From positions 248,001-312,000 of the forward strand of contig NZ_CP152052.1 of the NCBI RefSeq assembly GCF_038637725.1: DNA of 64,000 nt. The letters are read 5' to 3'. The notes under the pieces were generated by a model. It had not been told where the DNA came from and did not search any database. It was given only the letters and a program-made list of their open reading frames with translations. The position numbers and the translations under genes are program-made. Positions 3,287-63,852 of the stretch are shown one piece after another. The number at the start of each line of letters is the position of its first letter. The stretch's first letter is position 1. Origin of the DNA: Psychrobacillus sp. FSL H8-0483 (GTDB taxonomy: Bacteria > Bacillota > Bacilli > Bacillales_A > Planococcaceae).

Positions 3287-4048
3287 ATGAATAAACTATT
3301 AAATGCAATACAGTTTGAAGCCATTCACAATTTTCGAGATATGGGTGGCTACAAGTCTAAAGATGGCCGTACAGTAAAAGAAGGGGTACTATTTCGCTCT
3401 GGTGAATTAGGAAATATGAAAGAAGTTGATCTGGAAAAGCTTCAACAATTAAGTTTGCATACTATTTTTGATTATCGTGATGAAGTGGAGGCACAAACCA
3501 ATGTAACCCCTCTTATTGGTGGAGTAAACAATATTCGTATTCCTGCACAAAAACAAAATGAGACCCAAACTGCTGCCATGAAAGAAATATTAAAAAATGA
3601 AGCATTTTCTAATATAGATGAACACTCATTTACTTTATTTTACGTTGAATTACCGATAAATAATGCTTCCTATAAAAAGCTAGTAGAGATTTTTGTTGAG
3701 GGGAAGGGACCATTATTACATCACTGTACAGCAGGTAAAGACCGCACTGGAGTAGGAGCAGCAATTATTTTGATGATTTTAGATATTCCAATCGAGACCA
3801 TTATCGAAGATTACTTAAAAACGAATGAATTTTTACAAGAAAGTACACCAAAATGGTTAGAAAAAATGAAGGTAATAATTCAAGACGATGAAACAGTGGC
3901 AATACTTGCAAGCTGTAGAGAAATCTATATTCAAAGCGCATATAATAGTATTTTATCGGTGTACGGGAGTGTAGATGCATATTTACTGGAGGAATTTGGG
4001 ATAGATGCAGGTGTAAGAGAGAAAGTGAAATCACATTACTTAGTTTAA
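3287..4048 (+). CDS. tyrosine/serine protein phosphatase (DSP/PTP-like)
   Basis: A 253-residue soluble protein with the phosphatase loop HCTAGKDRTGVG near residues 145-156. In this loop the Cys attacks the phosphate and the Arg binds it. The N-terminal NFRDMGGYKSKDGRTVKEGVLFRSGEL is typical of the bacterial Y_phosphatase3 family, which acts on phosphotyrosine, phosphoserine or phosphoinositides. The start is ATG with AAGGAGG at 3274-3280. It stands alone between two terminators, 200 bp after the phn operon. The substrate is unknown. Confidence 0.88.
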   Translation: MNKLLNAIQFEAIHNFRDMGGYKSKDGRTVKEGVLFRSGELGNMKEVDLEKLQQLSLHTIFDYRDEVEAQTNVTPLIGGVNNIRIPAQKQNETQTAAMKEILKNEAFSNIDEHSFTLFYVELPINNASYKKLVEIFVEGKGPLLHHCTAGKDRTGVGAAIILMILDIPIETIIEDYLKTNEFLQESTPKWLEKMKVIIQDDETVAILASCREIYIQSAYNSILSVYGSVDAYLLEEFGIDAGVREKVKSHYLV

Positions 4049-22885: not shown

Positions 22886-23152
22886 ATGAATTTTTCGATG
22901 AACGAAACGAAAATTAAGCAATTATGCGGCATTACTGCTTATAAAAAAGGGAAAATCTATTACCAAGCAGGAAAAGTGAATCTTGACTCCTTTCAAGAAG
23001 ATAATCCAGAAATTAAAGCCAGAGTGAAAGCAGGGGATGATTTTAACTTCAGCGACCCTGAGTTAGAAACATCCACGTTAATTCAAACAATCGTGAATGT
23101 TTACACTTTCATGTTTGTTTCTGGCACAGGGACGCGATTTTCAAATCGTTGA
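22886..23152 (+). pseudogene. truncated SWIM/SNF2-associated protein N-terminus
   Basis: An 88-codon frame. Its first ~55 residues (MNETKIKQLCGITAYKKGK, then IYYQAGKV) resemble the N-terminus of SWIM zinc-finger or SNF2-associated proteins of Bacillales. The frame then runs through two sequences that are repeated elsewhere in the window: 23047-23090 (again at 23454-23497) and 23114-23141 (again at 29661-29688), and it ends shortly after. The full-length family is hundreds of residues longer. I read it as a gene fragment interrupted by repeat DNA. It has a plausible GGATTGG binding site, so a short product is possible. Confidence 0.5.
23047..23090 (+). repeat. 44-bp direct repeat, copy 1
   Basis: Shares the words GTTAGAAACAT and CACGTTAATTCAAA, with only about five differences, with 23454-23497 roughly 400 bp downstream. 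Copy 1 lies inside the SWIM-like fragment, and copy 2 is non-coding. Confidence 0.7.
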
Positions 23153-23389: not shown

Positions 23390-23453
23390 GTTTCTAGTTT
23401 AGTATAATAAAGGCTGAGGGATTTAGATGCCGAAAGTAGGTTATCTAACTGGA

Positions 23454-23497
23454 ATTTCAGCGCCCCTGTGTTAGAAACATTCACGTTAATTCAAAGG
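23454..23497 (+). repeat. 44-bp direct repeat, copy 2
   Basis: Non-coding partner of 23047-23090. It sits at the end of the CWC gene's 3' region, just before a terminator-like hairpin. Confidence 0.7.
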
Positions 23498-31243: not shown

Positions 31244-34129
31244 TTATTCTTCCACCAAATAATGATAAATATCATATTGTACTGGTTGTTCTAGTATCAT
31301 GTTCATTGTTACTACGGGGATTTGTTTGCCATTTTTGTCGAACATTTTTTCTTCTTTGGGGCTGTTTTCTGTGATAGAAGTTGTTCCCATGTAGTAGAAG
31401 TCAAATCCTTCGCCGTCGTCTTTTTTTGTGAATAGGTGAATGTCTAGTCCTGTTTGTTCTGCGGCTAATATTGCTTTTACTTCATTTGACTCTAGTGTTA
31501 ATTTACTTCGTGTGAACCAACGAAATATATCTGCAGATAAAAATTCATCGCCATAATTTACACTTGAGTCTACTTCGTCCTTTTTATGATAGGTTACGAA
31601 AATTGGACAAGTGCCATGCTTTACTCGATAGCCATATATTGTGGAGGAATCGTCCTTTGCCCAATTCAATAGACGGCAAGCATCTCTTCGTGAATATTTT
31701 TTATAAAGAGTAAGTTGACGTTTTGGATCATATTGTTTGTTTTTAATACGTGCACAAGCGACAATATCTTCAAAAAAGGCTTTGTAGAATGGATCGCGTA
31801 AACTTGTTTGAATTTCTTCATTAAATCGATAGCTTCCGTTATGCAATTCTATGATTGGCTTAGAGCCGAATTTGTTCTGATCATTTGTAACATGGAATTT
31901 TAATGCAAATATATTTTCAACTGATTCAATTGTTTCCTTATCCACATATGTGCCAAACTCTATTAATTTTACAATATACTCATCTTTTCCAATTAGATCA
32001 TTTCGAAGTAGAGCCTCTACCAATAGAACTTCATGGATTCTTTTACCGTTTAGAATTTCTTTTGATAACATTGTTAAAACGGACAATTCATAGTCTGAGA
32101 GTGTAGCAACTTCTTCTTTCATTTTCAAAAGAAATGCATAGTAATTTTCTGAGTAGCCGGTAATGACTTCGGGATCGAGTGAACTTTGTTCGATGAAATC
32201 ATGCATCGTTGGTATTCTGCCAAGGCGATTTTTCACTTCGGTGTAGGCATCTTTCAATGTTTTTAATGTTGAGAGATTAGTATTGTTAATGGCATCAAAA
32301 ATACGTTTCTTTGCAATTTCCTCAAAGTTAATTGTTGAAACCCCTTGGATGTAATCTGTGTTTACAGTTTTCCGGCGTACGTTATCTTTATTCATAGACT
32401 GGTCGCCAGAGAGAGCGATTGGGATTAAATAGTTATTTTTATAGTTTCCGATAAAGTCGATAATCGTTACGTAATCTTTTGTATCGTGTTTTCGTAGGCC
32501 ACGCCCAAGTTGTTGGATGAATATAATGCTTGATTGTGTTTGGCGCAGCATCACAATTTGATTTAAAAATGGAATATCGATTCCCTCATTAAAAATATCC
32601 ACTGTTAAAATATACTCGAGTTCGTAATGTTCTAATTTACTAATGGCATCTTCTCGTTCTGGCTGAGAATTATCCCCTGTAAGAGCAATAGTTTTTAGTC
32701 CACGTGCGTTTAAGGCTGCAGAAAGTTCATATGCTTCTTGTTTTGAACTACAGAACATTAATCCTCGAATGTGTTTTCCAGAATAACCATAGTAATTTGT
32801 TTTTTCCAGAATATGATGAATACGTTCATTTGATACGAGATGTTGCAAGGTAGAGGCATCATCAATGATTTCTCCGTCTTTTTCGTAATCGGTCACACCA
32901 AAATAGTGAAATGGGCAAAGCATCTCTTCTTCAAGAGCAGCTTGCAGGCGAATTTCGTAAGCAATATTGTAATCAAAGAGTTCAAAAATATTAAAACTAT
33001 CAGTACGTTCTGGCGTAGCAGTCATACCAAGCAAAAATTCAGGTTCAAAATAATTGATAATGTTTAGATAGGAATCTGCGCCTGCACGATGGACTTCATC
33101 TATTAAAATATAGTCAAATTCGTCTTTCGCGAATTGTTGCAAATGTCGGTTAGAAGATAGGGTTTGAACCGTTGCAAACAAATATTTAGAATGAACGTCT
33201 TTTGAGTTACCAGAGAGTATGCCGAAATCATCTTCGTGACCACCCAATACTTTTCGGTAATCTTGAAGTGCTTTCTTTAAAATTTGTTCACGATGAACGA
33301 CAAAGAGCATTTTTTTAGGGGCAAAGTTACGCACATCAAATGCAGATAAATAGGTTTTTCCAGTCCCAGTGGCTGAGATAATCAAACCTTTTTTTGCCTC
33401 AGTCGCTCTTAGAGTTTTTAATTGTTCAAGGGCAGCTGTTTGCATTTTATTTGGTTGAATTGCAAGGCTATCTGCTAACGGGTTTGATAAATATTCTGCG
33501 TTGACTTGAAATACATTTGAAGCTGCTTGTTTAATGAACGGTTGTTGCTCGTAACTTAGATTGTAATTGTTAATCCAATCTGTGGTTAAAGGAGAAGCTT
33601 CGTTCCAAGCCTCTTCAAATTGGTTTTTAAAGTGATGGATAATTTCACCATCTTCTAGTGAAGTTAGAAAGACATTCCACTCGTAATTAGCTTTTAAGGC
33701 ACTATCCGTTAAATTAGAGCTACCAACGATTAATGAATAATAGTCTTTATGCTCAAATATGTAGCCTTTTGAGTGAAATCCTTTGACACCAGTTAAGCGG
33801 ACTTCCACATTTTCAAGTTTTAATAGTTCTTTAAACATTTTTGGTTGATTAAAGTTTAAAAAAGTAGATGTTAAAATTCGACCTTTAATTCCTTTTAACT
33901 GAAGGTCATAGAGCATCGTTTTTAACGTAGCTAAACCACCTTCTGTAATAAAAGCAACTGAAAAAGTAAAGGTTTCACATGTTTTCATTTCTTGAAGAAG
34001 TGTTGATAAAACATTCTCATGTGATTTATTTAATAGTAGCTTTGGTTTAAAATGTCCTGATACGGGATTAGTCTGATCTATAAAACTCTTATATAAAGAA
34101 TTCTTCATTTTGTGAACCAGTTGTTCCAT
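31244..34129 (-). CDS. PLD-domain superfamily 2 helicase with DUF3427 C-terminus
   Basis: A 961-residue protein. Residues ~20-185 form a PLD-like nuclease domain with intact catalytic words FHSKGYIFEHKD and GSSNLTDSALK. The helicase core follows with SATGTGKT near 253, LIDEVHRAG, GMTATPERTD, VDIFNEGIDIP and the motif VI QQLGRGLRK. The last ~300 residues match DUF3427 (YSRRDACRLLNWAKDDSSTI, GTCPIFVTYHK). Such proteins are found with a Nudix partner in bacterial genomic islands and are suspected antiphage or repair factors. Here a MutT-type gene lies 33 bp upstream on the same strand. No strong binding site is visible before the ATG, so its translation may be low or coupled. Confidence 0.83.
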   Translation of the reverse strand: MEQLVHKMKNSLYKSFIDQTNPVSGHFKPKLLLNKSHENVLSTLLQEMKTCETFTFSVAFITEGGLATLKTMLYDLQLKGIKGRILTSTFLNFNQPKMFKELLKLENVEVRLTGVKGFHSKGYIFEHKDYYSLIVGSSNLTDSALKANYEWNVFLTSLEDGEIIHHFKNQFEEAWNEASPLTTDWINNYNLSYEQQPFIKQAASNVFQVNAEYLSNPLADSLAIQPNKMQTAALEQLKTLRATEAKKGLIISATGTGKTYLSAFDVRNFAPKKMLFVVHREQILKKALQDYRKVLGGHEDDFGILSGNSKDVHSKYLFATVQTLSSNRHLQQFAKDEFDYILIDEVHRAGADSYLNIINYFEPEFLLGMTATPERTDSFNIFELFDYNIAYEIRLQAALEEEMLCPFHYFGVTDYEKDGEIIDDASTLQHLVSNERIHHILEKTNYYGYSGKHIRGLMFCSSKQEAYELSAALNARGLKTIALTGDNSQPEREDAISKLEHYELEYILTVDIFNEGIDIPFLNQIVMLRQTQSSIIFIQQLGRGLRKHDTKDYVTIIDFIGNYKNNYLIPIALSGDQSMNKDNVRRKTVNTDYIQGVSTINFEEIAKKRIFDAINNTNLSTLKTLKDAYTEVKNRLGRIPTMHDFIEQSSLDPEVITGYSENYYAFLLKMKEEVATLSDYELSVLTMLSKEILNGKRIHEVLLVEALLRNDLIGKDEYIVKLIEFGTYVDKETIESVENIFALKFHVTNDQNKFGSKPIIELHNGSYRFNEEIQTSLRDPFYKAFFEDIVACARIKNKQYDPKRQLTLYKKYSRRDACRLLNWAKDDSSTIYGYRVKHGTCPIFVTYHKKDEVDSSVNYGDEFLSADIFRWFTRSKLTLESNEVKAILAAEQTGLDIHLFTKKDDGEGFDFYYMGTTSITENSPKEEKMFDKNGKQIPVVTMNMILEQPVQYDIYHYLVEE

Positions 34130-34162
34130 TTAAATCACGTCATTTCTTCCAAATTTTTCAAA

Positions 34163-34561
34163 CTAATATTCTTCTTTGACGATTTTTTCAACTGCTGGAA
34201 TATCTGCTGGTGCGAAATTAAGTTTATGTAAATTATCACGAGTTACCCACTTCGTATCTGAATGCTCAAGTGCAATGGGCTTGCCTTTTAATAATGTTGC
34301 CATATAAGTTTCTAATCTAACGATGACTTTCTCATATTCATAAGTTGTATCTTCCACTTTTTCACCAACTGTAATCGAGCAATTAAATTCCTCATTTATT
34401 TCACGTTGCAATGCTTCCTCTGGTGTTTCGCCAACTTCAATTTTTCCACCAGGAAACTCCCAATAGTTTGCCAAAGACATTTCAGGACCTCTTAGTGCAC
34501 AGAAAATTTCTTTGTTTTCATTTTCAATTATTGCTCCAACTACGTGGACTGATTTTTTCAT
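34163..34561 (-). CDS. Nudix (MutT-like) nucleoside triphosphate pyrophosphohydrolase
   Basis: A 132-residue Nudix hydrolase. The Nudix box GKIEVGETPEEALQREINEEF (G-x5-E-x7-REUxEExx pattern) is complete, and YWEFPGG precedes it. The CTP/8-oxo-dGTP pyrophosphatase type is most similar. The start is ATG 34561 with AGGGTG six bases before it; the longer frame begins at a GTG inside that site. It is the first gene of a two-gene unit with the PLD helicase and may act on nucleotides linked to that system rather than in general housecleaning. Confidence 0.85.
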   Translation of the reverse strand: MKKSVHVVGAIIENENKEIFCALRGPEMSLANYWEFPGGKIEVGETPEEALQREINEEFNCSITVGEKVEDTTYEYEKVIVRLETYMATLLKGKPIALEHSDTKWVTRDNLHKLNFAPADIPAVEKIVKEEY

Positions 34562-34639
34562 TTTATTCACCCTAAAAAATATTTGATAATTCTATCATAA
34601 TGTATTTACTCTAAAATTAGCATCAAAATTTCGAAACTA

Positions 34640-36418: not shown

Positions 36419-36563
36419 AATGTGTACCAAAAAAGGTGCGCTTTTTTATCTATTAACTTACATTATTTCCTTGTTATTGACATATTATTCCTGTATTCTT
36501 TTAAGTATATATTGAGTAATATATTCATAGTATTAGAGATTGATAATGAGAGGGGTCAAACCA

Positions 36564-37688
36564 TTGAAGACAGTTCGTATTTTATTAGTTTTACTTGTTA
36601 CTTTTGTTCTTTTTCCTATAACACCTACTTTTGCAGCAGAAAAAACCATTGATCAATATTACATGGATGATGTAGATTATGGGCATGGGGCTTATGAACA
36701 ATTAGAACGCTTCTTGTATTCAGATATCATAGATGGATATGAAGAAACAGAGGTTTATGAAGAAGATGGAGAAGTATATGAATATACATCCATTCTTATA
36801 AAACCAGAAAATAGTATTACCCGTGCACAATTCACAAAAATTTTGGTTAATGCTATGAATTTAACAAGTGGTGAGATTAAAAAAACGTTCCCTGATGTAA
36901 ATTCTTCAGCTTGGTATTATAACTATGTCCAAATTGCTAGTAGCAGAGGGATTATTACTGGAAAAGAAGATGGAACCTTTAAACCAAATGATAAGATTAC
37001 ACGTGCTCAAATGGCTACTATGATTTATCGTGCATTTAATGAGACGGTGGATTTTTCAACAACAGGAAAAACTTTCAAAGATGTAACTAAAAAAAGCAGC
37101 GCTTATGAAGCAGTTGTAAAAACAGCAGGTGTCGGAATTGTAAATGGTTATGGAGACGAGTTCAAACCGAATAATTTCGCTAAACGTTCCCATGCCGTAT
37201 TGATGATTGACCGTGCATTACATCTAGAATCTGGAACAGCTGAAGACGAACTTTCAGTGATTCAAACTGTAAATCGTAACATCACAGGAGAGTTGTCACT
37301 TTACTCTGAACAACAAAATCATGAAGCGTTGGAAGCTCTTTATCGCGAAACAACAATGGGTTATTATCTAGCTTATTCACTTGATAACCAGATTCTACTA
37401 GATGACCCTGAATATTCATTGGGTTCCGTTAAGATGGAACAAGTAGGTAAGCATTCAAGCAGTATTGTTTCCTTAAATAAGCGTTTTGCAGAAGTTAAAG
37501 TAGACAATCTAAAGGTTCATGTTTCCGTGAGTGAACCAGAAATGGACATGAATTTTGAAGTGACAGTGGATTTATCAAGTACTGCATATTTAAAGAAAAC
37601 AGAAGGCGGAACTTGGAAAATTTATAACCTTGTCTTTGATGATGAGGACTATGAAGATACGCTAACTGCAGCTATGGCTGGTAATTAA
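36564..37688 (+). CDS. exported SLH-domain protein
   Basis: A 374-residue secreted protein with signal peptide MKTVRILLVLLVTFVLFPIT and a cleavage site near TFAAE. Three S-layer homology modules cover residues ~30-215: ITRAQFTKILVNA, FPDVNSSAWYYNYVQIA, GTFKPNDKITRAQMATMIYRA, and VNGYGDEFKPNNFAKRSHAV. They anchor the protein to pyruvylated cell-wall polymer. The C-terminal ~150 residues have no family I recognise. The start is TTG 36564, with AGAGGGG at 36549-36555 and seven to eight bases of spacing; the ATG at 36546 has no binding site. A terminator follows directly. Confidence 0.83.
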   Translation: MKTVRILLVLLVTFVLFPITPTFAAEKTIDQYYMDDVDYGHGAYEQLERFLYSDIIDGYEETEVYEEDGEVYEYTSILIKPENSITRAQFTKILVNAMNLTSGEIKKTFPDVNSSAWYYNYVQIASSRGIITGKEDGTFKPNDKITRAQMATMIYRAFNETVDFSTTGKTFKDVTKKSSAYEAVVKTAGVGIVNGYGDEFKPNNFAKRSHAVLMIDRALHLESGTAEDELSVIQTVNRNITGELSLYSEQQNHEALEALYRETTMGYYLAYSLDNQILLDDPEYSLGSVKMEQVGKHSSSIVSLNKRFAEVKVDNLKVHVSVSEPEMDMNFEVTVDLSSTAYLKKTEGGTWKIYNLVFDDEDYEDTLTAAMAGN

Positions 37689-37690
37689 CC

Positions 37691-37739
37691 TAAAAAAGAT
37701 TCCCAACTCTACTTTAAAGAGGAGGGAATCTTTTTTTTC
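37691..37739 (+). terminator. terminator after the SLH gene
   Basis: AAAAAAGATTCCC pairs with GGGAATCTTTTTT across an 18-base loop and is followed by TTTT. Confidence 0.85.
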
Positions 37740-37750
37740 AGAATTTAGAT

Positions 37751-38490
37751 ATAGACTTATACACAAACTGTCCCCAAAATCCTTTTAGCATTAAAAATTT
37801 GATAGGAATTTAATCTGGTTGGTCTTCAAAAAATCGCAATCTGAGTTAAAAAGTTAAGCTTTTAAAGTATTTTCTAAAATTCTATATACTTATACACAAA
37901 ACTGTCCCCAAAATCCGTTTAGTATTAAAAATTTGATAGGAATATAATCTTGATGGTCTTCAAAAAATCGCAATCGGAGTTAGAAACTTAAGCTTTTAAA
38001 GTATTTTCTAAGATTCTATATACTTATACACATAACTGTCCCCAAAAATCCGTTTAGCATTAATAATTTGATAGGAATTTATTCTGGATGTTCTTCAAAA
38101 AATCGTAATCTGAGTTATAAAGGTGATGTTCAAAGATTCTATAGACTTATACACAAACTGTCCCCAAAATCCTTTTAGTATTAAAAAATAAATAGGAATT
38201 TAATCTGGATGGTCTTCAAAAAATCGCAATCGGAGTTAAAAAGTTAAGCTTTTAATGTATTTTCTAAGATTCTATATACTTATACACAAAACTGTCCCCA
38301 AAATCCGTTTAGCATTAATAATTTGATAGGAATTTATTCTGGATGTTCTTCAAAAAACCATAATCTGAATCATAAAAGTGATGTATTTAAAGTATTTTTT
38401 AAAAATCTATCTACTTATACACAAAACTGTCCCCAAAATCTGTAAAACATTAAAAATTTGATAGGAATTTTTATTCTGGATGGTCTTAGA
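37751..38490 (+). repeat. six tandem ~134-bp repeats, each with TTATACACA and CTGTCCCCAAAATC
   Basis: The word CTGTCCCC recurs at 37768, 37902, 38036, 38158, 38292 and 38427, so the period is 134, 134, 122, 134 and 135. Each unit also carries TTATACACA (37757, 37890, 38024, 38147, 38280, 38415), ATTTGATAGGAAT (changed in unit 4) and GGTCTTCAAAAAATCG-like words. Units 1 and 4 share TATAGACTTATACACAAACTG, and units 3 and 5 share CATTAATAATTTG, which suggests block duplication. There is no coding frame and there are no unique spacers, so it is not a CRISPR array. TTATACACA is one mismatch from the DnaA box TTATCCACA. Confidence 0.92.
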
Positions 38491-38535
38491 CTGTAAAAGT
38501 ATATTAACTTAATTAAAATTAGCTTGTCAACTACC

Positions 38536-38548
38536 TATAATACTAAGG
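38536..38548 (-). promoter_or_regulatory. candidate GntR operator upstream of its own gene
   Basis: TATAATACTAAGG is the reverse complement of CCTTAGTATTATA. The same CTTAGTATTATA occurs at 39543 before the transporter genes. Both lie next to a GTTGACAA/TTGTCAAC word. It sits 125 bp before the regulator's reading frame. Confidence 0.45.
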
Positions 38549-38660
38549 ATTAATATTTATGCTGCTTCTGATTGCATTAATGGTTAGTATCATATATTGT
38601 TGTAAATGCTAATACTTTGAGTTATTATAATTTTTAAAAAGTAAGTGAGGTGGAAGAATC

Positions 38661-39386
38661 ATATTACAAACAAAGCCAGCTTATCAAATCATATATGACA
38701 CGATTCAACAGAAAATACTCGATGGTATTTTTCAACAAGGTGATATTTTGCCTTCAGAAGTTGAGTTAGAGAAGATGTTTAATGTTAGTCGAACACCTGT
38801 AAGGCAGGCATTAAAACAGCTTGAAAATGATCGACTTATTTACAGGGTGCAAGGTAAGGGATCATTTGTAGCAAATCAGCAGCCAAAAGAAACATGGACG
38901 AACATGTCAGGGTTTCGAAATCAATACAGTACCGATTGGGAGAAAATATCCGTAAGAACAATCGAACTAAAAAAAGTAGTAGATCCCCATTTTTGTAGCC
39001 TTCTACATGTAGGAGAAAATGAAGAATTGATTTATTTGAAGAGAATTAGATATTTGAATAATCAGCCTATGATTTACCTGGAACATTATATTCGTTCCAT
39101 ATTGCCCATAGAGGTTTATCAAGAAGATAGTGCATTTTCTTCTGTCCAAAAGTTGCTGAAAGAAAAAGCCGGTATCGAGTTAATAGAAGTTGAGGACGAA
39201 ATAGAAGCTGTAATAGCGGATCCTTATATTTCCGGTGCATTGCAAATTCCTAATTCGTCAGCAGTCTTAAAAGGAACCAGGATTTCCTATACAGAAAATA
39301 GAACGCCAATCGATTTGAATATTTTTTATATAAACACAAATAACTGGAAATATTACTCCCATTATCAAAATCATTCTCAAACTTAA
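38661..39386 (+). CDS. GntR/HutC-type regulator with no standard start codon
   Basis: A 241-residue transcription factor. The DNA-binding domain begins with LQTKPAYQIIYDTIQQKIL and continues as PSEVELEKMFNVSRTPVRQAL and RVQGKGSF; the C-terminal half is a UTRA ligand-binding domain (ELIYLKRIRYLNNQPMIYLE). The first in-frame standard start, TTG 38748, would cut off the first helix. Between the upstream stop (38646) and 38748 there is no ATG, GTG or TTG. GAGGTGG at 38647-38653 points to ATA 38661 as an unusual start, with 7-bp spacing. A start-codon mutation is the alternative. It probably controls the following transporter operon. Confidence 0.72.
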   Translation: MLQTKPAYQIIYDTIQQKILDGIFQQGDILPSEVELEKMFNVSRTPVRQALKQLENDRLIYRVQGKGSFVANQQPKETWTNMSGFRNQYSTDWEKISVRTIELKKVVDPHFCSLLHVGENEELIYLKRIRYLNNQPMIYLEHYIRSILPIEVYQEDSAFSSVQKLLKEKAGIELIEVEDEIEAVIADPYISGALQIPNSSAVLKGTRISYTENRTPIDLNIFYINTNNWKYYSHYQNHSQT

Positions 39387-39417
39387 AATAAAAAATGTAT
39401 TAAATTAAAAATGAGAC

Positions 39418-39446
39418 AAAAAACACCTATGATAAAGGTGTTTTTC
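39418..39446 (+). terminator. terminator after the GntR gene
   Basis: AAAAACACCT pairs with AAGGTGTTTTT around ATGAT and is followed by a T-run. Confidence 0.8.
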
Positions 39447-39541
39447 TATTAATACGAATATCTCCAAAGTAACACGATATAGACAGTTTTTAAAGAAAAA
39501 AGCTAAATGGAAAAAATACTATCTTAATTTTAAAAAATGAT

Positions 39542-39588
39542 ACTTAGTATTATATCTTGTTGACAACTATTAATCCTATCATTTATTA
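39542..39588 (+). promoter_or_regulatory. promoter and operator of the amino-acid transporter operon
   Basis: The -35 box TTGACA is at 39560-39565. An AT-rich -10 region (TTATTA near 39583) follows at 17 bp. Directly upstream lies ACTTAGTATTATA (39542-39554), the word shared with the regulator's own upstream region and with 42023-42036. Downstream, CAGAAAATA (39608-39616) and TATTTTCTG (39627-39635) form a perfect 9-bp inverted repeat in the leader. Confidence 0.5.
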
Positions 39589-39686
39589 TTTAATTATTCA
39601 CATCTGTCAGAAAATAAACAATATTATATTTTCTGAGAATGTGATTTCAACAAGTCTGTCAACAATACAAAAAAGGGGGATTTTTT

Positions 39687-40475
39687 ATGTTTAAGTTTAA
39701 AAAACTGTTGATGTTATCTGCATTAATTGGACTATTGTCTATTATCATGATGGGATGTAGTGGCGAAAGTTCTAAATCCAGCGCTGATGGAAAGAAAGAC
39801 GAAACATCAAAAGTTAGTATTGCAGCATTAAATAATTATCCACCACTTATGTTCAAAAAAGAGGGTAAGCTGGTCGGTTTTGAACATGATATTTTGGAAG
39901 CGATTGCAAAAGAAGAAAATCTTGATATTGAATATAAAGAGATGAAATTTGATGGATTTATTCCAGGATTGCAATCAAATCAAGTGGATGTTGCATCGTC
40001 ATTACTAATACGTGAAGAACGTAAAGAAGTAGTAGACTTTGCAGACGTATTCTTAAAATCCGGACTCGTATTAGTTGTTGCTAAAGATAGTCCAATCCAA
40101 TCATTAGAAGATCTGAAAGGTAAAACAATTGTCGCTACACAGGGCTCTACAACTTTAGAAAAGGCAAAAGAATTGGCAGCAAAATATGGTGGGGAAGCAA
40201 AGCCTCTAAAAGAAACTGATGCCCTTTACATGGATGTAGAAAATGGGAACTCAGATGCTCTCGTGCTCAACTCACCAACTGTTGACTACCGTTTAAAAGT
40301 GGATGGAGACAATGTTAAATTCAGAATCGTAGGAGAACATCTGACTGTTGATGAACATGCTTTTGCTGTTAAAAAAGGAAATACAGAATTAGTAGAAAAA
40401 ATAAATTCAGGATTAAAGACCATTAAAGAAAATGGAGAATTCAATAAAATTCATGCTGAGTGGTTCGGTGAATAA
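39687..40475 (+). CDS. polar amino-acid-type ABC transporter binding lipoprotein
   Basis: A 262-residue lipoprotein with lipobox MMGC (Cys24). The family-3 solute-binding fold shows YPPLMFKKEGKLVGFEHDIL, LQSNQVDVASSLLIREERKE, LKGKTIVATQGSTTLEKAKE and EHAFAVKKGNTELVEKINSG. Binding-site acidic and arginine residues (the Arg in REERKE, the Asp in ENGNSDALV) are conserved, which implies an amino-acid-like ligand. GGGGG lies 7 bp before the ATG. It is the first gene of a three-gene transporter operon. Confidence 0.86.
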   Translation: MFKFKKLLMLSALIGLLSIIMMGCSGESSKSSADGKKDETSKVSIAALNNYPPLMFKKEGKLVGFEHDILEAIAKEENLDIEYKEMKFDGFIPGLQSNQVDVASSLLIREERKEVVDFADVFLKSGLVLVVAKDSPIQSLEDLKGKTIVATQGSTTLEKAKELAAKYGGEAKPLKETDALYMDVENGNSDALVLNSPTVDYRLKVDGDNVKFRIVGEHLTVDEHAFAVKKGNTELVEKINSGLKTIKENGEFNKIHAEWFGE

Positions 40476-40545
40476 CAACTTGTATAAGGACTTGGAATAA
40501 ACGTTGCTATTTACAACTGTTAAATTATAGAAAAGAGGTGTTTTT

Positions 40546-41202
40546 ATGGGAACAACACTAAAAGTAATTGAAGAAGCATTGCCATACCTCTTGCAAGGGT
40601 TGTACATGACAGTTTTAATCTCTGTCGTATCAATAATCATATCGCTTGGTATCGGTTTGGTCGCTTGTTTTATGCGAATGTCAAAGTATGCCATTTTGCG
40701 GTATCCTGCTGCAATGTATGTAAACCTCATTCGTGGGACTCCAATACTGATTCAAATATTATTCATCTATTTTGGTGCACCGTCTGTTCTGGATATAAGA
40801 CTTTCCGCTTTAACTGCGGGACTAATTGCAATAAGTTTAAACATTGGGGCATATAATACAGAAATTTTTCGTGGCGGTATCGAATCGATTAGTAAAGGGC
40901 AAATGGAAGCTGGCAGATCACTTGGCTTTTCATATTCTCAAACAATGGCATTAATTATTTTACCTCAGGCAATACGTCGAATGATTCCTTCATTCGTTAA
41001 TCAATTGACTCATGCCATTAAGGATACGTCTATGCTTTCCGTAATAGGAATAGCGGAATTGACAATGGTTGGACAATCAATTTACGCAATGAACTTCAGG
41101 TCCTTTGAAATATTGACGGTAGTGGGTGCATTTTACTTTATCACCATTTATACCGTTTCTCTTATTTCAACTAGGATGGAACGGAGGTTTGTGATTACAT
41201 GA
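40546..41202 (+). CDS. polar amino-acid ABC transporter permease
   Basis: A 218-residue permease of the HisMQ type with four to five helices. [17 protein letters not shown] near residue 62 and the contact loop [22 protein letters not shown] near residues 121-142 are family hallmarks. It serves as a homodimer, since no second permease gene exists. AGAGGTG precedes the ATG, and the stop overlaps the ATPase start in ATGA. Confidence 0.88.
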
Positions 41203-41921
41203 TTAAAGTTGAGAATCTTTCCAAGTCATTTGGAAACTTAGAAGTCTTAAAAAATATTAGTACGTATATTGCACCACAAGAAGTGGTTTGCATTATCGGC
41301 TCTTCTGGTTCTGGAAAAAGCACGTTCTTAAGATGTCTAAATCTCTTGGAAGAACCCACAGGTGGACAAATTATCGTTGAAGACGAAAACATAGTAGATA
41401 AAGACACGGATATTAATAAGCTCCGTCAAAAAATGGGGATGGTTTTTCAACAATTTAATCTTTTTCCACAAAAAAGTGTCATTGAAAATATCACATTAGC
41501 CCCAATGAAATTAAAAAAGAAATCTAAAAAAGATGCCAAAACGCAAGCGATGGAACTATTAAAAAAAGTTGGGCTATCTGAAAAAGCCGACGTTTATCCT
41601 ACTAATCTGTCCGGTGGTCAACAACAGCGAGTAGCCATTGCAAGAGCATTGGCTATGGAACCTCATGTCATGTTATTTGACGAACCGACTTCTGCACTTG
41701 ATCCTGAAATGGTAGGTGAAGTTCTAAGAGTTATGAAGCAACTGGCAAAAGAGGGGATGACGATGGTCATCGTAACTCATGAAATGGGCTTTGCTCGTGA
41801 AGTGGCAGACCGAGTAATTTATATTGATGGTGGATGTATTATTGAGGAAGGTAACCCACAGGATTTATTTTCAAACCCAACTCATGAGAGAACAAAAGCA
41901 TTTTTATCAAAAGTTTTATAA
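41199..41921 (+). CDS. polar amino-acid ABC transporter ATPase
   Basis: A 240-residue GlnQ/HisP-type ATPase. Walker [10 protein letters not shown] lies near residues 33-41, the Q-loop at FQQFNLFPQ, the signature LSGGQQQR near 134 and Walker [15 protein letters not shown] near 153-166. A terminator follows at 41936, so the transporter operon ends here and the catabolic genes have their own promoter. Confidence 0.9.
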
Positions 41922-41935
41922 ATGTATTTAGATTA

Positions 41936-41992
41936 GCCCTTCGTTTTTCATAGGATATCTAATCATTACGAAAAACGAAGGCTCACACTTTT
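41936..41992 (+). terminator. terminator of the amino-acid transporter operon
   Basis: GCCCTTCGTTTTTC pairs with GAAAAACGAAGGC across a 20-base loop, and CTTTT follows shortly after. Confidence 0.7.
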
Positions 41993-42022
41993 GAAGGAAG
42001 TAGTCAAAAATTTTTCGAGTAT

Positions 42023-42036
42023 CTTAGTATACTAAG
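42023..42036. promoter_or_regulatory. perfect 14-bp palindrome, candidate GntR operator
   Basis: CTTAGTATACTAAG is a perfect palindrome 39 bp before the next ATG. Its left half CTTAGTAT matches 39543 and the complement of 38540-38547. This links regulator, transporter and catabolic genes. Confidence 0.55.
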
Positions 42037-42074
42037 TATTATATTTATATGTTTTTTTAAGAAGGAGAAGTCAG

Positions 42075-43094
42075 ATGACCAAAACTGTCCTATTAATTGA
42101 ACCTACTATCCGTCCGATTGGAGTAGATTATTTAACTAGCAATTTCAATGTAGTAGTAGCACCTAATGGATTAGAAGAAACGATTATAGAATATATAAAT
42201 GAGCATAAAGCTCATGCAGTTATTATTAGAACAGAAAAAATCACTAAAAATATTTTAGAACAATGCCCCACTTTAGAGGTGATCGGTATGCACGGAGTTG
42301 GATTAGATACTATTGACGTGCCAAGCGCAACAGAGTATGGAGTAATGGTATTGAATGCTCCATTCAGCAATTATACGTCAGTAGCCGAACACTCTATTAT
42401 GTCGATTCTCGCACTGAGTAGAGATTTAAGAGTAAGTGATTCAAAAGTTAGAAATAACGAATGGAATCACAGAGAAGTTTATTTTCCAATGGAAATAAAC
42501 GCTAAAACTCTTTTGATTGTTGGAATGGGTAAAGTTGGGCAGGATTTAGCTAAAAAAGCGAAAGCGTTTAATATGAATGTGTTAGGATTTGATCCATTTT
42601 TATCAGAATCAGAAATGAAAATACATGGTGTATTAAAGGTAGATGATGTGAACTTATATCTTCCACAATGCGACTTCATCTCATTACATGCACCACTTAC
42701 AAAGAGTACTTATCACATGTTTTCTGCAGAACAATTTGAATTAATGAAAAATACATCGTTCATTATCAACTTAGGTAGGGGCTCTTTGATAAATGAAGAA
42801 GCACTGCTAGATGCTTTAGTTCATAAAAAAATAAGCGGTGCCGCATTAGATGTTTTGGAACAAGAACCTCCAAATAGTGATAATCCCTTGTTCAAATTAG
42901 AAAATGTAATCTTCACCCCTCATTTTGGCGGCGATACATTGGAAGCAAAGGATAGATGCTCTGAATCAATAACAAAAGAAGTTGGTATTGTTCTTCAAGG
43001 TCAAATATCTCGAAACTTAGTGAATCTGCAAGTGTTAGGAAATGCCAAATATTTAAATAAAAATTCAAAAATTCAATTAGAAGGAGTTAAATAA
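42075..43094 (+). CDS. NAD-dependent 2-hydroxyacid dehydrogenase (SerA-like)
   Basis: A 339-residue D-isomer-specific 2-hydroxyacid dehydrogenase. MHGVGLDTIDV near residue 75, the nucleotide-binding LLIVGMGKVGQDLAKKA near 143, NLGRGSLINEEAL near 235 (catalytic Arg), DVLEQEPP near 258 (Glu) and FTPHFGGDT near 280 (His) are all present. There is no ACT regulatory domain, so phosphoglycerate dehydrogenase of serine synthesis is unlikely. AAGAAGGAGAAG precedes the ATG. The next gene starts 2 bp after its stop codon. Confidence 0.83.
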   Translation: MTKTVLLIEPTIRPIGVDYLTSNFNVVVAPNGLEETIIEYINEHKAHAVIIRTEKITKNILEQCPTLEVIGMHGVGLDTIDVPSATEYGVMVLNAPFSNYTSVAEHSIMSILALSRDLRVSDSKVRNNEWNHREVYFPMEINAKTLLIVGMGKVGQDLAKKAKAFNMNVLGFDPFLSESEMKIHGVLKVDDVNLYLPQCDFISLHAPLTKSTYHMFSAEQFELMKNTSFIINLGRGSLINEEALLDALVHKKISGAALDVLEQEPPNSDNPLFKLENVIFTPHFGGDTLEAKDRCSESITKEVGIVLQGQISRNLVNLQVLGNAKYLNKNSKIQLEGVK

Positions 43095-43095
43095 A

Positions 43096-43983
43096 ATGAA
43101 ATATAAAGGAATTATGACTGCTTTAGTTACCCCGATGGATGAAAATGGATTAGTTGATAAACAAAGTTTTGCAAATTTAATTCAAGATCAATTAAATAAT
43201 AATATTCATTCTTTACTTGTATTAGGCGGAACAGGTGAATATACTGCACTTAATATGGAACAACGAAAAATAGCGATTGATGTTGCAATAAGCGAAGTTA
43301 ATGGCAAGGTACCGGTAGTAGTCGGTTTGCTTTCTCCTGGGTTGGGAGACAATATAGAATTAGGAAAATATGCAAAACAAGCTGGTGCCGATTCTGTAAT
43401 GGCCGTTACACCGTTTTATGTAAGCCCGACAAAAGAAGGTTTCATTCAATACTATGAAGTCCTTGATAAAGCTTTGGACATGCCGATTATCCTCTATAAC
43501 ATTCCGTATAAAACAGGCATTAATATGACGAATGATGTGGTGGAAAAAATTGTTGGGAAAATTCCGAACGTAGTGGGAATGAAAGTTTGTTCCGATAACA
43601 TGGGAGATGTAATTGAATTAATCCAATCTGTTGGAGATAAAATCTCAGTTCTTTGCGGAGAGGATTATAGAGCGGTTTCATCATTTATAACAGGAGCACC
43701 TGGTGCTATTACGGCCAGTTCCAACCTTATCCCAGACGTTTGGGTGAAAATCTATGATTTGGTTCAACAAAAAGAATACGATGAAGCAGTAGAGCTCCAT
43801 AAAAAGTTTTTCCCACTCATGAAAGCACTCTACAGAGAAGGAAATCCGGGTCCTCTAAAAGCAGCGTTAAATATGATTGGCTTGCCAGTCAGTTCTGTTT
43901 CAGTTCCATTATTAGATCCTTCACTCCAAGTAGTAGAAGAACTGAAGAGTAAACTGGATGAATTAATCGTACCTGTAAGGTAA
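43096..43983 (+). CDS. DapA/NanA-family aldolase or dehydratase
   Basis: A 295-residue TIM-barrel lyase of the dihydrodipicolinate synthase/N-acetylneuraminate lyase family. GGTGEYTALN near residue 44 binds the keto acid. The family tyrosine is in PIILYNIPYKTG near 132 and the Schiff-base lysine in VVGMKVCSDN near 162. Being paired with a dehydrogenase and an amino-acid importer, it is more likely catabolic (a 2-keto-acid aldolase or deaminating dehydratase) than a lysine-synthesis enzyme. AAGGAG lies inside the end of the previous gene. Confidence 0.8.
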   Translation: MKYKGIMTALVTPMDENGLVDKQSFANLIQDQLNNNIHSLLVLGGTGEYTALNMEQRKIAIDVAISEVNGKVPVVVGLLSPGLGDNIELGKYAKQAGADSVMAVTPFYVSPTKEGFIQYYEVLDKALDMPIILYNIPYKTGINMTNDVVEKIVGKIPNVVGMKVCSDNMGDVIELIQSVGDKISVLCGEDYRAVSSFITGAPGAITASSNLIPDVWVKIYDLVQQKEYDEAVELHKKFFPLMKALYREGNPGPLKAALNMIGLPVSSVSVPLLDPSLQVVEELKSKLDELIVPVR

Positions 43984-44054
43984 CCTTTAATAGTGTTGGG
44001 TACCTATTAGACGTAATATTCAGTAAATACACTATAGTTGTGTGTAATAAAAAC

Positions 44055-44094
44055 GAGAAACCAGTCATGATAAGAATTGACTGGTTTCTTAACT
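44055..44094 (+). terminator. terminator after the dapA-like gene
   Basis: GAGAAACCAGTC pairs with GACTGGTTTCTT across a 12-base loop. The T-run is weak. The following 285 bases before rocA show only AT-rich sequence. Confidence 0.65.
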
Positions 44095-44379
44095 GAATTT
44101 TGTTTCTTTTGTGGATTTTAGTTTATATGTCACTTCAATTATTTGAGGGAATTCCACAAAATATAAAGCGATACTAAATTTTTAATAATTTTCATGATAG
44201 ATTTGGGGTTAATAATCAAAAAAATAGACTTGTTTACTAGATTAGAAAATTCCAAGGAAACTGAGAACCGATTCAATGAAATTGTCATTAGCATGAACTG
44301 TCAATAAAGCTAAAAAGCTAGAATGGTTATAGAAAATTCATTAAAGATGCTAAAAAAATATATTTCGGAGGTTATTCAC

Positions 44380-45927
44380 ATGGTAATCGCATATAAACAC
44401 GAACCTTTTACAGATTTTACTAAGGAAGAAAATAAAGAGGCATTTAAAGAGGCACTTAAATTAGTACAATCATATCTTGGAAAAGACTATGATTTAATCA
44501 TAGGCGGGGAGCGTATCTCAACAGAAGACAAAATTGTTTCTGTCAATCCGTCAAATAAAGAAGAAGTGGTTGGTCGTGTATCCAAAGCCAACCAGGAGCT
44601 TGCTGAAAAGGCAATGAAAATTGCTGATAAAGCGTTCAATACATGGAAGAAAACAAAGGCTGAAGTAAGGGCTGATGTTTTATTCCGTTCAGCAGCAATT
44701 GTAAGACGCCGTAAACACGAATTCTCAGCTATCTTAGTAAAAGAAGCTGGGAAGCCATGGAATGAAGCAGACGCAGATACTGCTGAAGCTATTGATTTTA
44801 TGGAATATTATGGGCGGCAGATGTTGAAATTAAAAGATGGAGTGCCAGTAGAAAGTCGTCCAATCGAGCATAATAGTTTTAATTATATTTCGCTTGGTGT
44901 TGGAGTGATCATTTCGCCTTGGAACTTTGCATTTGCTATTATGGCAGGCATGACAACAGCAGCTATCGTTTCTGGCAATACCGTATTATTAAAGCCAGCA
45001 AGTACCACTCCAGTTGTGGCAGCTAAATTTATAGAAGTACTTGAAGAAGCTGGACTTCCTAAAGGGGTTGTCAATTTCGTACCTGGGAACGGGGCTGAGG
45101 TAGGAGATTATTTAGTTGACCACCCCCAAACTCGCTTTATTAGTTTCACTGGATCACGAGATATAGGTCTTCGCATTTTCGAACGGGCCTCAATACTAAG
45201 TGAGGGTCAAATTTGGTTAAAACGTGTTATTGCTGAGATGGGTGGTAAAGATACCATCGTTGTTGACAAAGAAGCGGATTTGGAATTGGCTGCAAAGTCT
45301 ATCGTATTATCGGCTTTTGGTTTCTCAGGTCAAAAATGCTCTGCTTGTTCACGTGCAGTTATTGTAGAAGATGTATACGATTCAGTATTAAACCGTGCTA
45401 TTGAACTTACAAAAGAATTAACCGTAGGAGATGGAGCAGATCCATCGAATTATATGGGGCCAGTAAATGACCAAAACGCATTCGATAAAGTCATGAGCTA
45501 TATAGAGATTGGTAAGCAAGAAGGTAAACTCCTTGCTGGTGGTGAGGGAGATGACACCAAAGGATGGTTCATCCAACCAACAATCATTGCTGATGTAGCA
45601 GAAGATGCACGTATAATGAAAGAAGAAATATTTGGTCCAGTTGTAGCATTCTGTAAAGCACGTGATTTTGATCATGCCATTGAAATTGCGAATAACACAG
45701 AATATGGTTTAACAGGAGCTGTAATTTCTAATAACCGAGAAAATATCGAAAAGGCACGTGAGGATTTCCATGTTGGGAATCTATATTTCAATAGAGGATG
45801 TACGGGTGCTATTGTGGGATACCAACCATTTGGTGGATTTAATATGTCAGGAACGGATTCAAAAGCTGGCGGACCAGATTATTTAATTCAGCATATGCAG
45901 GGTAAGACAACATCAGAAATGCTTTGA
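44380..45927 (+). CDS. rocA: 1-pyrroline-5-carboxylate (glutamate semialdehyde) dehydrogenase
   Basis: A 515-residue aldehyde dehydrogenase that oxidises glutamate-5-semialdehyde to glutamate in proline and arginine breakdown. [19 protein letters not shown] at the start, [15 protein letters not shown] near 185, [11 protein letters not shown] near 286, the catalytic Cys in [15 protein letters not shown] near residue 320 and [10 protein letters not shown] near 415 match RocA/PruA. The length equals the family norm once the start is set at ATG 44380, with GGAGG at 44367-44371; the upstream frame to 44323 is not supported. A terminator follows at 46016. It may be co-functional with, but is transcribed apart from, the upstream cluster. 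Confidence 0.9.
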
Positions 45928-46015
45928 TAATGATTTGTTGATGATCTGAAGAAGTATTTATGAATCATATAATAACCAAGCCCATTTGATTTTACAGATA
46001 AAGATAAAAATTCTT

Positions 46016-46189: not shown

Positions 46190-46527
46190 TTTAGGAGAAA
46201 GTGGGGGAGATGTTGGAGCATAATAAATAAGTAGATATCTCTACCTGACACAAGTAGAAATATCTACTTTTCTATGTTTCCATGGTTCATTATTAATCTA
46301 AAATCTCCCCCTATGCGACAATCGTTTGTAATAATAGTTTCAATAACTCTTCTAATGTTTCTGGTAATAGTTCTGGTAAATCTATTGGACTCTTCATTTC
46401 TATTCCTCCTTGAATCTCGTATTCTATTAACAATATAGGCAATCTATTTCGATTTTATACATAGATTTAGAAGAAAATTTTAAAAATGTTGATAATCTAT
46501 TAAAAAAGAGATTATCGGTCTAAATTA
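46190..46527. repeat. ~340-bp duplicated element, copy 1
   Basis: Nearly identical to 63332-63670. It contains the hairpin GTAGATATCTCTAC-N9-GTAGAAATATCTAC, an outer pair GGGGGAGAT/ATCTCCCCC, a small minus-strand ORF region with GGAGG, and a final stem GATAATCT...AGAGATTATC. Here the small ORF has lost one base. No transposase is present and no clear target-site duplication was seen. Confidence 0.88.
46312..46397 (-). pseudogene. frameshifted copy of a 28-codon small ORF
   Basis: Same sequence as the intact ORF at 63452-63538, but it reads GATTACC where the intact copy has GATTTACC, one T less on the minus strand. The frame therefore changes after six codons and stops early. GGAGGAATAGAA is still present before the ATG. 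Confidence 0.55.
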
Positions 46528-46534
46528 CTGTCTG

Positions 46535-62268: not shown

Positions 62269-63087
62269 CTAAATCTTTTCTAAAACCCCTTTAATCAATC
62301 CAACAAATTTAGTTTTTACTTTACTCGCAACTTCGATGACTTCATCATGATTTAATGGCTGATCTAATATCCCGCATGCCATATTTGTTAAGCAAGAAAT
62401 ACCAAGTACCTTCATATTTCCGTGTGTGGCTACAATAGCTTCTGGTACTGTTGACATACCTACAGCGTCAGCTCCTAGTGTTCGAATCATACGAATTTCT
62501 GCTGGAGTTTCGTAGGCGGGGCCGCTCCACCAAGCATAGACTCCGTGCTGCAAAGGTATATTTTGTTCGGATGCTACTGTAGTGGCGATATTACGTAGCT
62601 CCTTGTTATATACTTGCGATAAATCAGGAAAGCGAGTTCCTAGCTCATCATTGTTTGGTCCCATTAATGGATTTGTCCCAACTAAATTAATATGGTCTGT
62701 AATGATCATTAAATCTCCGGGACTAAAGCTTGTATTAACAGCACCACAAGCGTTTGTAATAATCACATTCTCTATACCAAGTGCTTTCATTACACGTACT
62801 GGGAAGGTTACTTCATCCAAAGTAAACCCTTCATAATAATGAAAACGACCTTTCATCGCTGCTACAATCTTTCCATTTAATTCTCCTATAACAAGTTCGT
62901 TCGCATGACCAATTGCTTCAGACTTTGCAAAGTGAGGAATTTCACTATAAGGAATTTTGACCGGATTCTTAATTTCATCCGCAAGTGTTCCTAAGCCTGA
63001 GCCTAGAATCAGTCCAATCACAGGACGATCGTCTGTCTTATTCATAATGAAATCTCTAGTTTCTAAAATATCTTGGATGTTATGCAT
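62269..63087 (-). CDS. purine nucleoside phosphorylase
   Basis: A 272-residue type I (trimeric) purine nucleoside phosphorylase that splits inosine or guanosine with phosphate. GLILGSGLGTLADEI near residue 25, GRFHYYEG near 80, ITNACGAVN near 110, VYAWWSGPAYETPAEIRM near 187 and DAVGMSTVPEAIVA near 210 match the PunA/PupG family. GGAGG precedes the ATG on the minus strand. It stands alone, without the usual deoxyribomutase neighbour. Confidence 0.9.
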   Translation of the reverse strand: MHNIQDILETRDFIMNKTDDRPVIGLILGSGLGTLADEIKNPVKIPYSEIPHFAKSEAIGHANELVIGELNGKIVAAMKGRFHYYEGFTLDEVTFPVRVMKALGIENVIITNACGAVNTSFSPGDLMIITDHINLVGTNPLMGPNNDELGTRFPDLSQVYNKELRNIATTVASEQNIPLQHGVYAWWSGPAYETPAEIRMIRTLGADAVGMSTVPEAIVATHGNMKVLGISCLTNMACGILDQPLNHDEVIEVASKVKTKFVGLIKGVLEKI

Positions 63088-63331
63088 TAATATTTCCTCC
63101 TTGGATCGTTATCATTAAAGTTTAGTATTAAAAAAACTACACATGTAGTCTACATTTACTAGCAAAAATATAGCATGTTATCGTTAAAAGTTTAATGGAG
63201 GGAAGTATCATTGTAAAGGAAACTTCATAAATGTACTTATATTCCAAACAGTTTACTTGCAGTCTTGAATTTTTATAACACAGGGGCATAAGGGTATGTT
63301 TTTTGATCAAAAAAAGTAGCTTTTTATTACT

Positions 63332-63670
63332 TAGGAGAGGATGAGGGAGATGTTGGAGTAGAATGAATAAGTAGATATCTCTACCTGACACAAGTAGAAA
63401 TATCTACTATTCTATGTTTCCAAGGTTCATTATTAATCTAAAATCTCCCCCCTATGCGACAATCGTTTGTAATAATAGTTTCAATAACTCTTCTAATGTT
63501 TCTGGTAATAGTTCTGGTAAATCTATTGGACTCTTCATTTCTATTCCTCCTTGAATCTCATATTCTATTACCAATATAGGCAATCTATTTCGATTTTATA
63601 CATAAATTTAGAAGAAAATATTAAAAATGTTGATAATCTCTTAAAAAAGAGATTATCGATCTAAATTACT
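63332..63670. repeat. ~340-bp duplicated element, copy 2
   Basis: Nearly identical to 46190-46527. The hairpin lies at 63371-63407 (GTAGATATCTCTAC/GTAGAAATATCTAC), the intact small ORF at 63452-63538 and the final stem GATAATCTCTT-AAAAA-AGAGATTATC at 63632-63657. The matching ends are near TTAGGAGA and CTAAATTACT. The preceding gap, 63088-63331, shows nothing. Confidence 0.88.
63452..63538 (-). CDS. 28-residue amphipathic small protein, unrecognised
   Basis: GGAGGAATAGAA lies directly before an ATG that opens 28 codons and ends in TAG. The peptide starts MKSPIDLPELLPETLEE and continues with leucine-rich turns ending in QTIVA. It is acidic and would form an amphipathic helix, not a clear membrane helix. 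A hairpin lies 45 bp downstream. The second copy of the locus is frameshifted. I do not recognise the family; a regulatory, toxin-like or signalling peptide is possible, as is chance coding in a mobile element. Confidence 0.5.
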   Translation of the reverse strand: MKSPIDLPELLPETLEELLKLLLQTIVA

Positions 63671-63748
63671 TTCATCAAAGTCCTAAACTCCCAAACTAAT
63701 ATCGGCATTTCCTACACATTTCTTCTAGTAATCTACATAAACGTTTAT

Positions 63749-63777: not shown

Positions 63778-63800
63778 GAATAGGTACCCGAATGATCGGG

Positions 63801-63836
63801 AGAGGTTCATAGCTGATACCCTCTATAAAAAACTAT
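63801..63836 (+). ncRNA. preQ1-I riboswitch aptamer
   Basis: AGAGGTTCATAGCTGATACC followed by CTCTATAAAAAACTAT is the preQ1-I consensus: P1 stem AGAGG/CCTCT, loop TTCATAGC and the A-rich tail that forms the pseudoknot. A terminator hairpin follows at 63853, so preQ1 binding should stop transcription of the downstream gene. Confidence 0.9.
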
Positions 63837-63852
63837 GGATACATGACTATTC

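Follow-up and report, generated by a model that had tools for sequence, protein, structure and literature searches.

In the cold-loving soil bacterium Psychrobacillus sp. FSL H8-0483, whose genome is a 4.14-Mb single contig with dnaA beginning at its first base, we analyzed a window of 64,000 nucleotides (the whole stretch of DNA studied, to which positions refer unless stated otherwise) holding a tandem array at 37750-38487 on the plus strand, about 286 kb from dnaA. To its left lies a segment with an S-layer-homology protein gene (36471-37736, plus strand) and to its right an operon comprising gntR, amino-acid ABC transporter, dehydrogenase, DapA-like and aldehyde dehydrogenase genes (38508-45987, plus strand). 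Delimited by TRF and self-BLAST, the array has a period of 134 bp, 5.6 copies and a score of 1013, with 83% matches and 5% indels between units; a higher-order period of 390 bp (1.9 copies) also fits it, and its G+C content is 27% vs 36% for the window. It is organized head to tail as about five and a half repeats with six copies of a 28-base box, all on the plus strand. Box 1 (TATAGACTTATACACA-AACTGTCCCCAAAAT; 37748-37780) forms the left edge and is followed by box 2 (37881-37914), box 3 (38015-38049), box 4 (38138-38170), box 5 (38271-38304) and box 6 (38406-38439), after which a partial spacer of about 50 bp runs up to 38487. The six units announced by a previous sequence-only reading are thus six boxes, but only five full spacers and a fraction of the sixth.

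The six boxes read TATnnACTTATACACA(n)AACTGTCCCCAAAA. The word TTATACACA starts at 37757, 37890, 38024, 38147, 38280 and 38415, with spacings of 133, 134, 123, 133 and 135 bp and always in the same direction, and CTGTCCCCAAAA has six exact copies in the window, at these same six places; the repeats of about 134 bp with six boxes described from the sequence are therefore confirmed. A single unit contains both TTATACACA and CTGTCCCC. All six occurrences of TTATACACA in the window fall inside the array, vs 0.92 expected, and none of 100 shuffles reaches six; since the units descend from one unit by duplication, these are not six independent hits. Alignment of the units also bears out that the word is identical in all copies while its flanks vary, the invariant block, ACTTATACACA-(0/1 nt)-AACTGTCCCCAAAA, being even longer than claimed. 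The spacers vary, being about 104 bp long and 70-94% alike. A duplication of blocks of units, proposed from pairs 1/4 and 3/5, is supported by the spacer identities (94% for u3/u5 and 92% for u1/u4, most other pairs being at 70-90%) together with the 390-bp period, yet u1/u2 reach 91% too.

Regarding its distribution, the repeat unit occupies a single place, none other having been found in the 4.14-Mb genome (genome-wide counts were obtained through searches). Among 261 genomes of the family, strong matches to a sequence model occur only in this genome, P. insolitus (G128) and Psychrobacillus sp. OK032 (G141), the model's matches outside these three species being at chance level only (AT-rich, with E values from about 9e-4 upwards), and the array is absent from 16 of the 19 Psychrobacillus species. 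The exact box pattern, sought across the genomes of 85,000 species in a scan that may leave out the window's own genome, was found in P. insolitus, in OK032 and in one further match, from Epulopiscium, which seems to belong to a coding sequence and was put down to chance. In P. insolitus, 2.7 kb hold three copies of [box-spacer-box], which are about 84-87% alike; OK032 has three boxes and two spacers. In a tree of the dnaA-dnaN region, some deep nodes of which are weakly supported, OK032 nests in a group lacking the array and the three carriers are not monophyletic, implying several losses or transfers of the array.

Between species, the right boxes are 93-94% identical vs 68-77% for the spacers, and this genome and P. 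insolitus share one stretch of 29 bp at 100% identity. In the alignment, no other run of 28 columns is as conserved as the right box (column-permutation p = 0.0006, a value that ignores the shared ancestry of the units), and the right half of the box, TCCCCAAAA, is at least as conserved as the left half. The left-hand boxes, at the array edges, are less conserved: TTATACACA is replaced by TTATTAACA in three of P. insolitus and by TTATAAACA in one of OK032, TCCCCAAAAT being retained in all but one case. Selection on the box is hence not uniform. Given the identity of the right boxes as compared with the spacers, the box is nevertheless probably under selection, and from this conservation between species we infer, fairly in our opinion, a sequence-specific binding protein. 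The protein-binding array listed among the earlier options thus gains indirect support, the box being far more conserved than its surroundings, although gene conversion among few related units could partly account for this conservation. The sequence-only reading had also named, besides a lack of DnaA binding, an observation that would count against it, namely a unit recurring across the genome in places without TTATACACA: the unit recurs nowhere else in the genome, but copies in relatives do lack the word.

The three carrier species all have the array in one and the same hypervariable region, with different adjoining genes in each, a result of neighborhood comparison beyond the reach of single-sequence reading. 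The conserved landmarks of this region are a segment at 27.4-30.8 kb, a DUF3427 helicase gene with a Nudix gene at 31.2-34.6 kb (left anchor, 31244-34570, minus strand), an aldolase-type gene at 35.1-36.2 kb and a phosphorylase gene at 62.3-63.1 kb (right anchor, 62269-63087, minus strand, named purine-nucleoside-phosphorylase-like from its sequence). The array sits between the aldolase and phosphorylase genes, within a 26-kb insert, in this genome; between the Nudix and aldolase genes in P. insolitus; and between the orthologue of the 27.4-30.8 kb segment and the aldolase gene in OK032, where its neighbors are a type II restriction-modification set and a fragment that matches DndH in part. 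As to the suggested chromosome-organization site, what the species share is the hypervariable region only, and no fixed position relative to the origin emerged. As for the anchor genes themselves, PADLOC assigns the DUF3427/PLD helicase (31244-34570) to type IV methyl-directed restriction enzymes with 1042 bits, and the adjacent Nudix gene matches the candidate defense family PDC-S07.

The segments bordering the array are found in other species, in other contexts. The left one (36471-37736) is 93% identical to its counterpart in genome G137, vs 83% for dnaA-recF, and the right one (38508-45987) is 97.8% identical to that of genome G133, vs 84% for dnaA-recF, the right segment thus being a recent horizontal transfer. 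The array ends about 12 and 20 bp from these two segments and was found beside the matching segment in neither G133 nor G137; the gntR operon being kept at 97.8% identity in G133 without the array, we discarded an operator function for this operon. The arrays of all three species start at a box, and we found no recombinase next to the array. Elsewhere in the window, direct repeats of 343 bp, 95% identical, at 46191-46532 and 63331-63673, enclose 17 kb of genes for transport and sugar metabolism, an arrangement suggestive of an inserted island, and a PreQ1 riboswitch lies at 63796-63842 (Rfam RF00522, 41.3 bits). A separate, partly palindromic dispersed short repeat, CCCTGTGTTA...GTTTCTAACGCAG, occurs in intergenic places of the genus (23045-23102 and 23453-23495 in the window; 3586-3634 of locus L018 and 8526-8610 of L019).

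Several classes of elements were considered and rejected. As anticipated from the sequence, the array has no coding capacity, and it is no coding remnant: its longest internal open reading frames span 27-40 amino acids and its period is not divisible by 3. The option of a small-RNA array or structured element, on the other hand, did not survive, since no Rfam family matches the array at gathering or permissive thresholds, alignment folding of ten units from three species gives no consensus pairs and no conserved fold, and in single-sequence folding the minimum free energy is weaker than that of shuffles (z +3.8). A CRISPR array, made of short identical repeats, unrelated spacers and cas genes, is at odds with spacers of this length and likeness, and no cas genes were recognized among the neighboring open reading frames read; a MITE, with the lack of any inverted repeat of 10 bp or more inside the array. 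A plasmid or phage origin was set aside, as the array matches no plasmid or phage and IMG/VR viral contigs do not contain the box pattern. In P. insolitus, a fragment between two repeat copies resembles the tail of a PDDEXK_2 gene by BLASTN; an Rpn/PD-(D/E)XK element was dismissed, given that intact PDDEXK_2 genes of the genus have no box nearby and that this genome has no PDDEXK_2. A literature search on CTGTCCCCAAAA returned unrelated papers only.

The DnaA box consensus is TTATNCACA (PMC4447404, PMC5295017), to which TTATACACA is a perfect match; that the word lies one base off the DnaA box holds only against TTATCCACA. This exact fit makes binding plausible in vitro, and DnaA may possibly bind the array: the left half of the box being a perfect DnaA box, DnaA is a candidate binder, while it does not account for the right half, TCCCCAAAA. 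That the array would titrate DnaA or otherwise tune replication initiation, as do the clusters of Bacillus subtilis or datA of Escherichia coli, we nevertheless regard as improbable. Such a role could draw on six perfect TTATNCACA boxes in 667 bp, on the use of TTATACACA in the dnaA-dnaN origin region of the same genome, and on the early initiation of B. subtilis deprived of its six DnaA-box clusters (PMC5295017, PMC13220808). However, the array has six exact and no one-mismatch boxes in 744 bp, whereas the region upstream of oriC has seven exact and four one-mismatch boxes in 330 bp, and a cluster of the same genome (contig C1, 442976-443348; locus L109, 1977-2349) six exact and six one-mismatch boxes in 390 bp, on both strands, that is, 12-17 one-mismatch boxes per kb at these two loci. 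Taking them as the yardstick for grouping with weaker boxes, in place of a formal definition, the array has several perfect boxes (six exact TTATNCACA) but not their close grouping with weaker ones, and the DnaA word is not kept in homologous loci, four of the relatives' left boxes having TTATTAACA or TTATAAACA instead. Moreover, the boxes stand 123-135 bp apart in one direction throughout, conservation spans all of CTGTCCCCAAAA, TTATMCACA shows no genome-wide enrichment (132 vs 130 for the reversed control), the six copies amount to one duplicated site, and most species of the genus manage without the array. DnaA titration by the array, as put forward from the sequence, is therefore not supported. 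The cluster at 443.0-443.35 kb, outside the window, looks conventional and would suit the role of a DnaA-titration or regulatory locus better than the array does. A second stretch resembling dnaN, with about 72% identity to it, is present at C1:3829901-3831036 and in several species of the genus.

The explanation that we favor, giving it about an even chance, is a non-coding satellite-type repeat with a selected 28-bp protein-binding box, resident in a hypervariable region of three Psychrobacillus species. This region is a hotspot where genes are gained and lost, and units, judging from their relationships, would multiply and vanish there through unequal recombination or slippage, block duplication included. 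Each unit would carry one box, ACTTATACACA-AACTGTCCCCAAAA, selected as the site of a DNA-binding protein as its conservation suggests, so that the array would present several copies of this site at intervals of about 134 bp. Most likely, the array persists as a repeat residing in the hotspot, not as a locus that controls chromosomal replication; its persistence in one region could also reflect vertical inheritance with repeated loss, the hotspot playing no role.

A functionless satellite born of chance tandem duplication in a gene-poor hotspot, with few related copies giving an appearance of box conservation, seems rather unlikely to us: it would suit the patchy distribution, the variable copy number, the differing neighbors and the hypervariable position, but sits poorly with right boxes 94% identical between species whose spacers are at 68-77%, and with the 29 bp shared unchanged with P. 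insolitus. Very doubtful is a role of the box array as the hotspot's resident landing or recombination site, beside which foreign segments would join; this reading draws on the junctions about 12 and 20 bp away, on arrays starting at a box and on the turnover of adjacent genes, that is, on junction positions in few genomes. Leftward promoters on the minus strand, formed by GGGACA-17/18 nt-TAnnnT in most boxes, are highly improbable. GGGACA N17-18 TAGAAT does occur on this strand in boxes 2-5, with TATAAT in one P. insolitus box, and ten aligned right-hand boxes all keep the same T, A and T in the putative -10 element; against this, the promoter-like count in the region is 10, near that of shuffles (6.9, sd 2.7), the hexamers are no more conserved than the bases that separate them, and a transcript would oppose the upstream gene, with no terminator or open reading frame.

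If a protein does bind the box, the locus offers a natural test of how an intergenic repeat persists amid the gene turnover of a hotspot. If DnaA binds the array, DnaA-binding arrays can arise through satellite expansion, independently of known clusters. A perfect DnaA word repeated six times should be read with caution, as a single event copied six times.

Several known systems invite comparison. MITEs are defined by terminal inverted repeats and target duplication, and mobile intergenic repeats are short and non-coding. The array is likewise short and non-coding, and its three copies in P. insolitus are dispersed within 2.7 kb, but it has no terminal inverted repeats and no matching transposase nearby, and is not dispersed in this genome or in OK032. 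Like datA of E. coli, it is an intergenic locus with several DnaA boxes; the function of datA requires IHF and a particular box arrangement (PMC5835720), and B. subtilis has neither datA nor IHF (PMC13220808). With the six DnaA-box clusters that B. subtilis has outside oriC (PMC5295017, PMC13220808), it shares several perfect DnaA boxes in an intergenic array, but it differs by its lack of weak boxes, its wide and regular spacing, its additional conserved TCCCCAAAA and the loss of the DnaA word in relatives. Closest in form are prokaryotic satellites, defined as arrays with a minimum of 4 tandem units, each of 10-200 nt (PMC6749651). Indeed, the array is tandem and intergenic, has, according to TRF, 5.6 copies of a unit whose 134 nt are not divisible by 3, and is confined to one genus, with related arrays in few species; it is internally regular (83% matches, 5% indels, spacings of 123-135 bp), judging by these figures rather than by the regularity criterion of that study. 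What sets it apart from these satellites is that one short part of its unit is far more conserved than the remainder, and that the arrays stay within a single hypervariable region. The array is thus a real satellite-type repeat, of a kind already known in prokaryotes, with an unusually conserved core and set in a gene-swapping hotspot.
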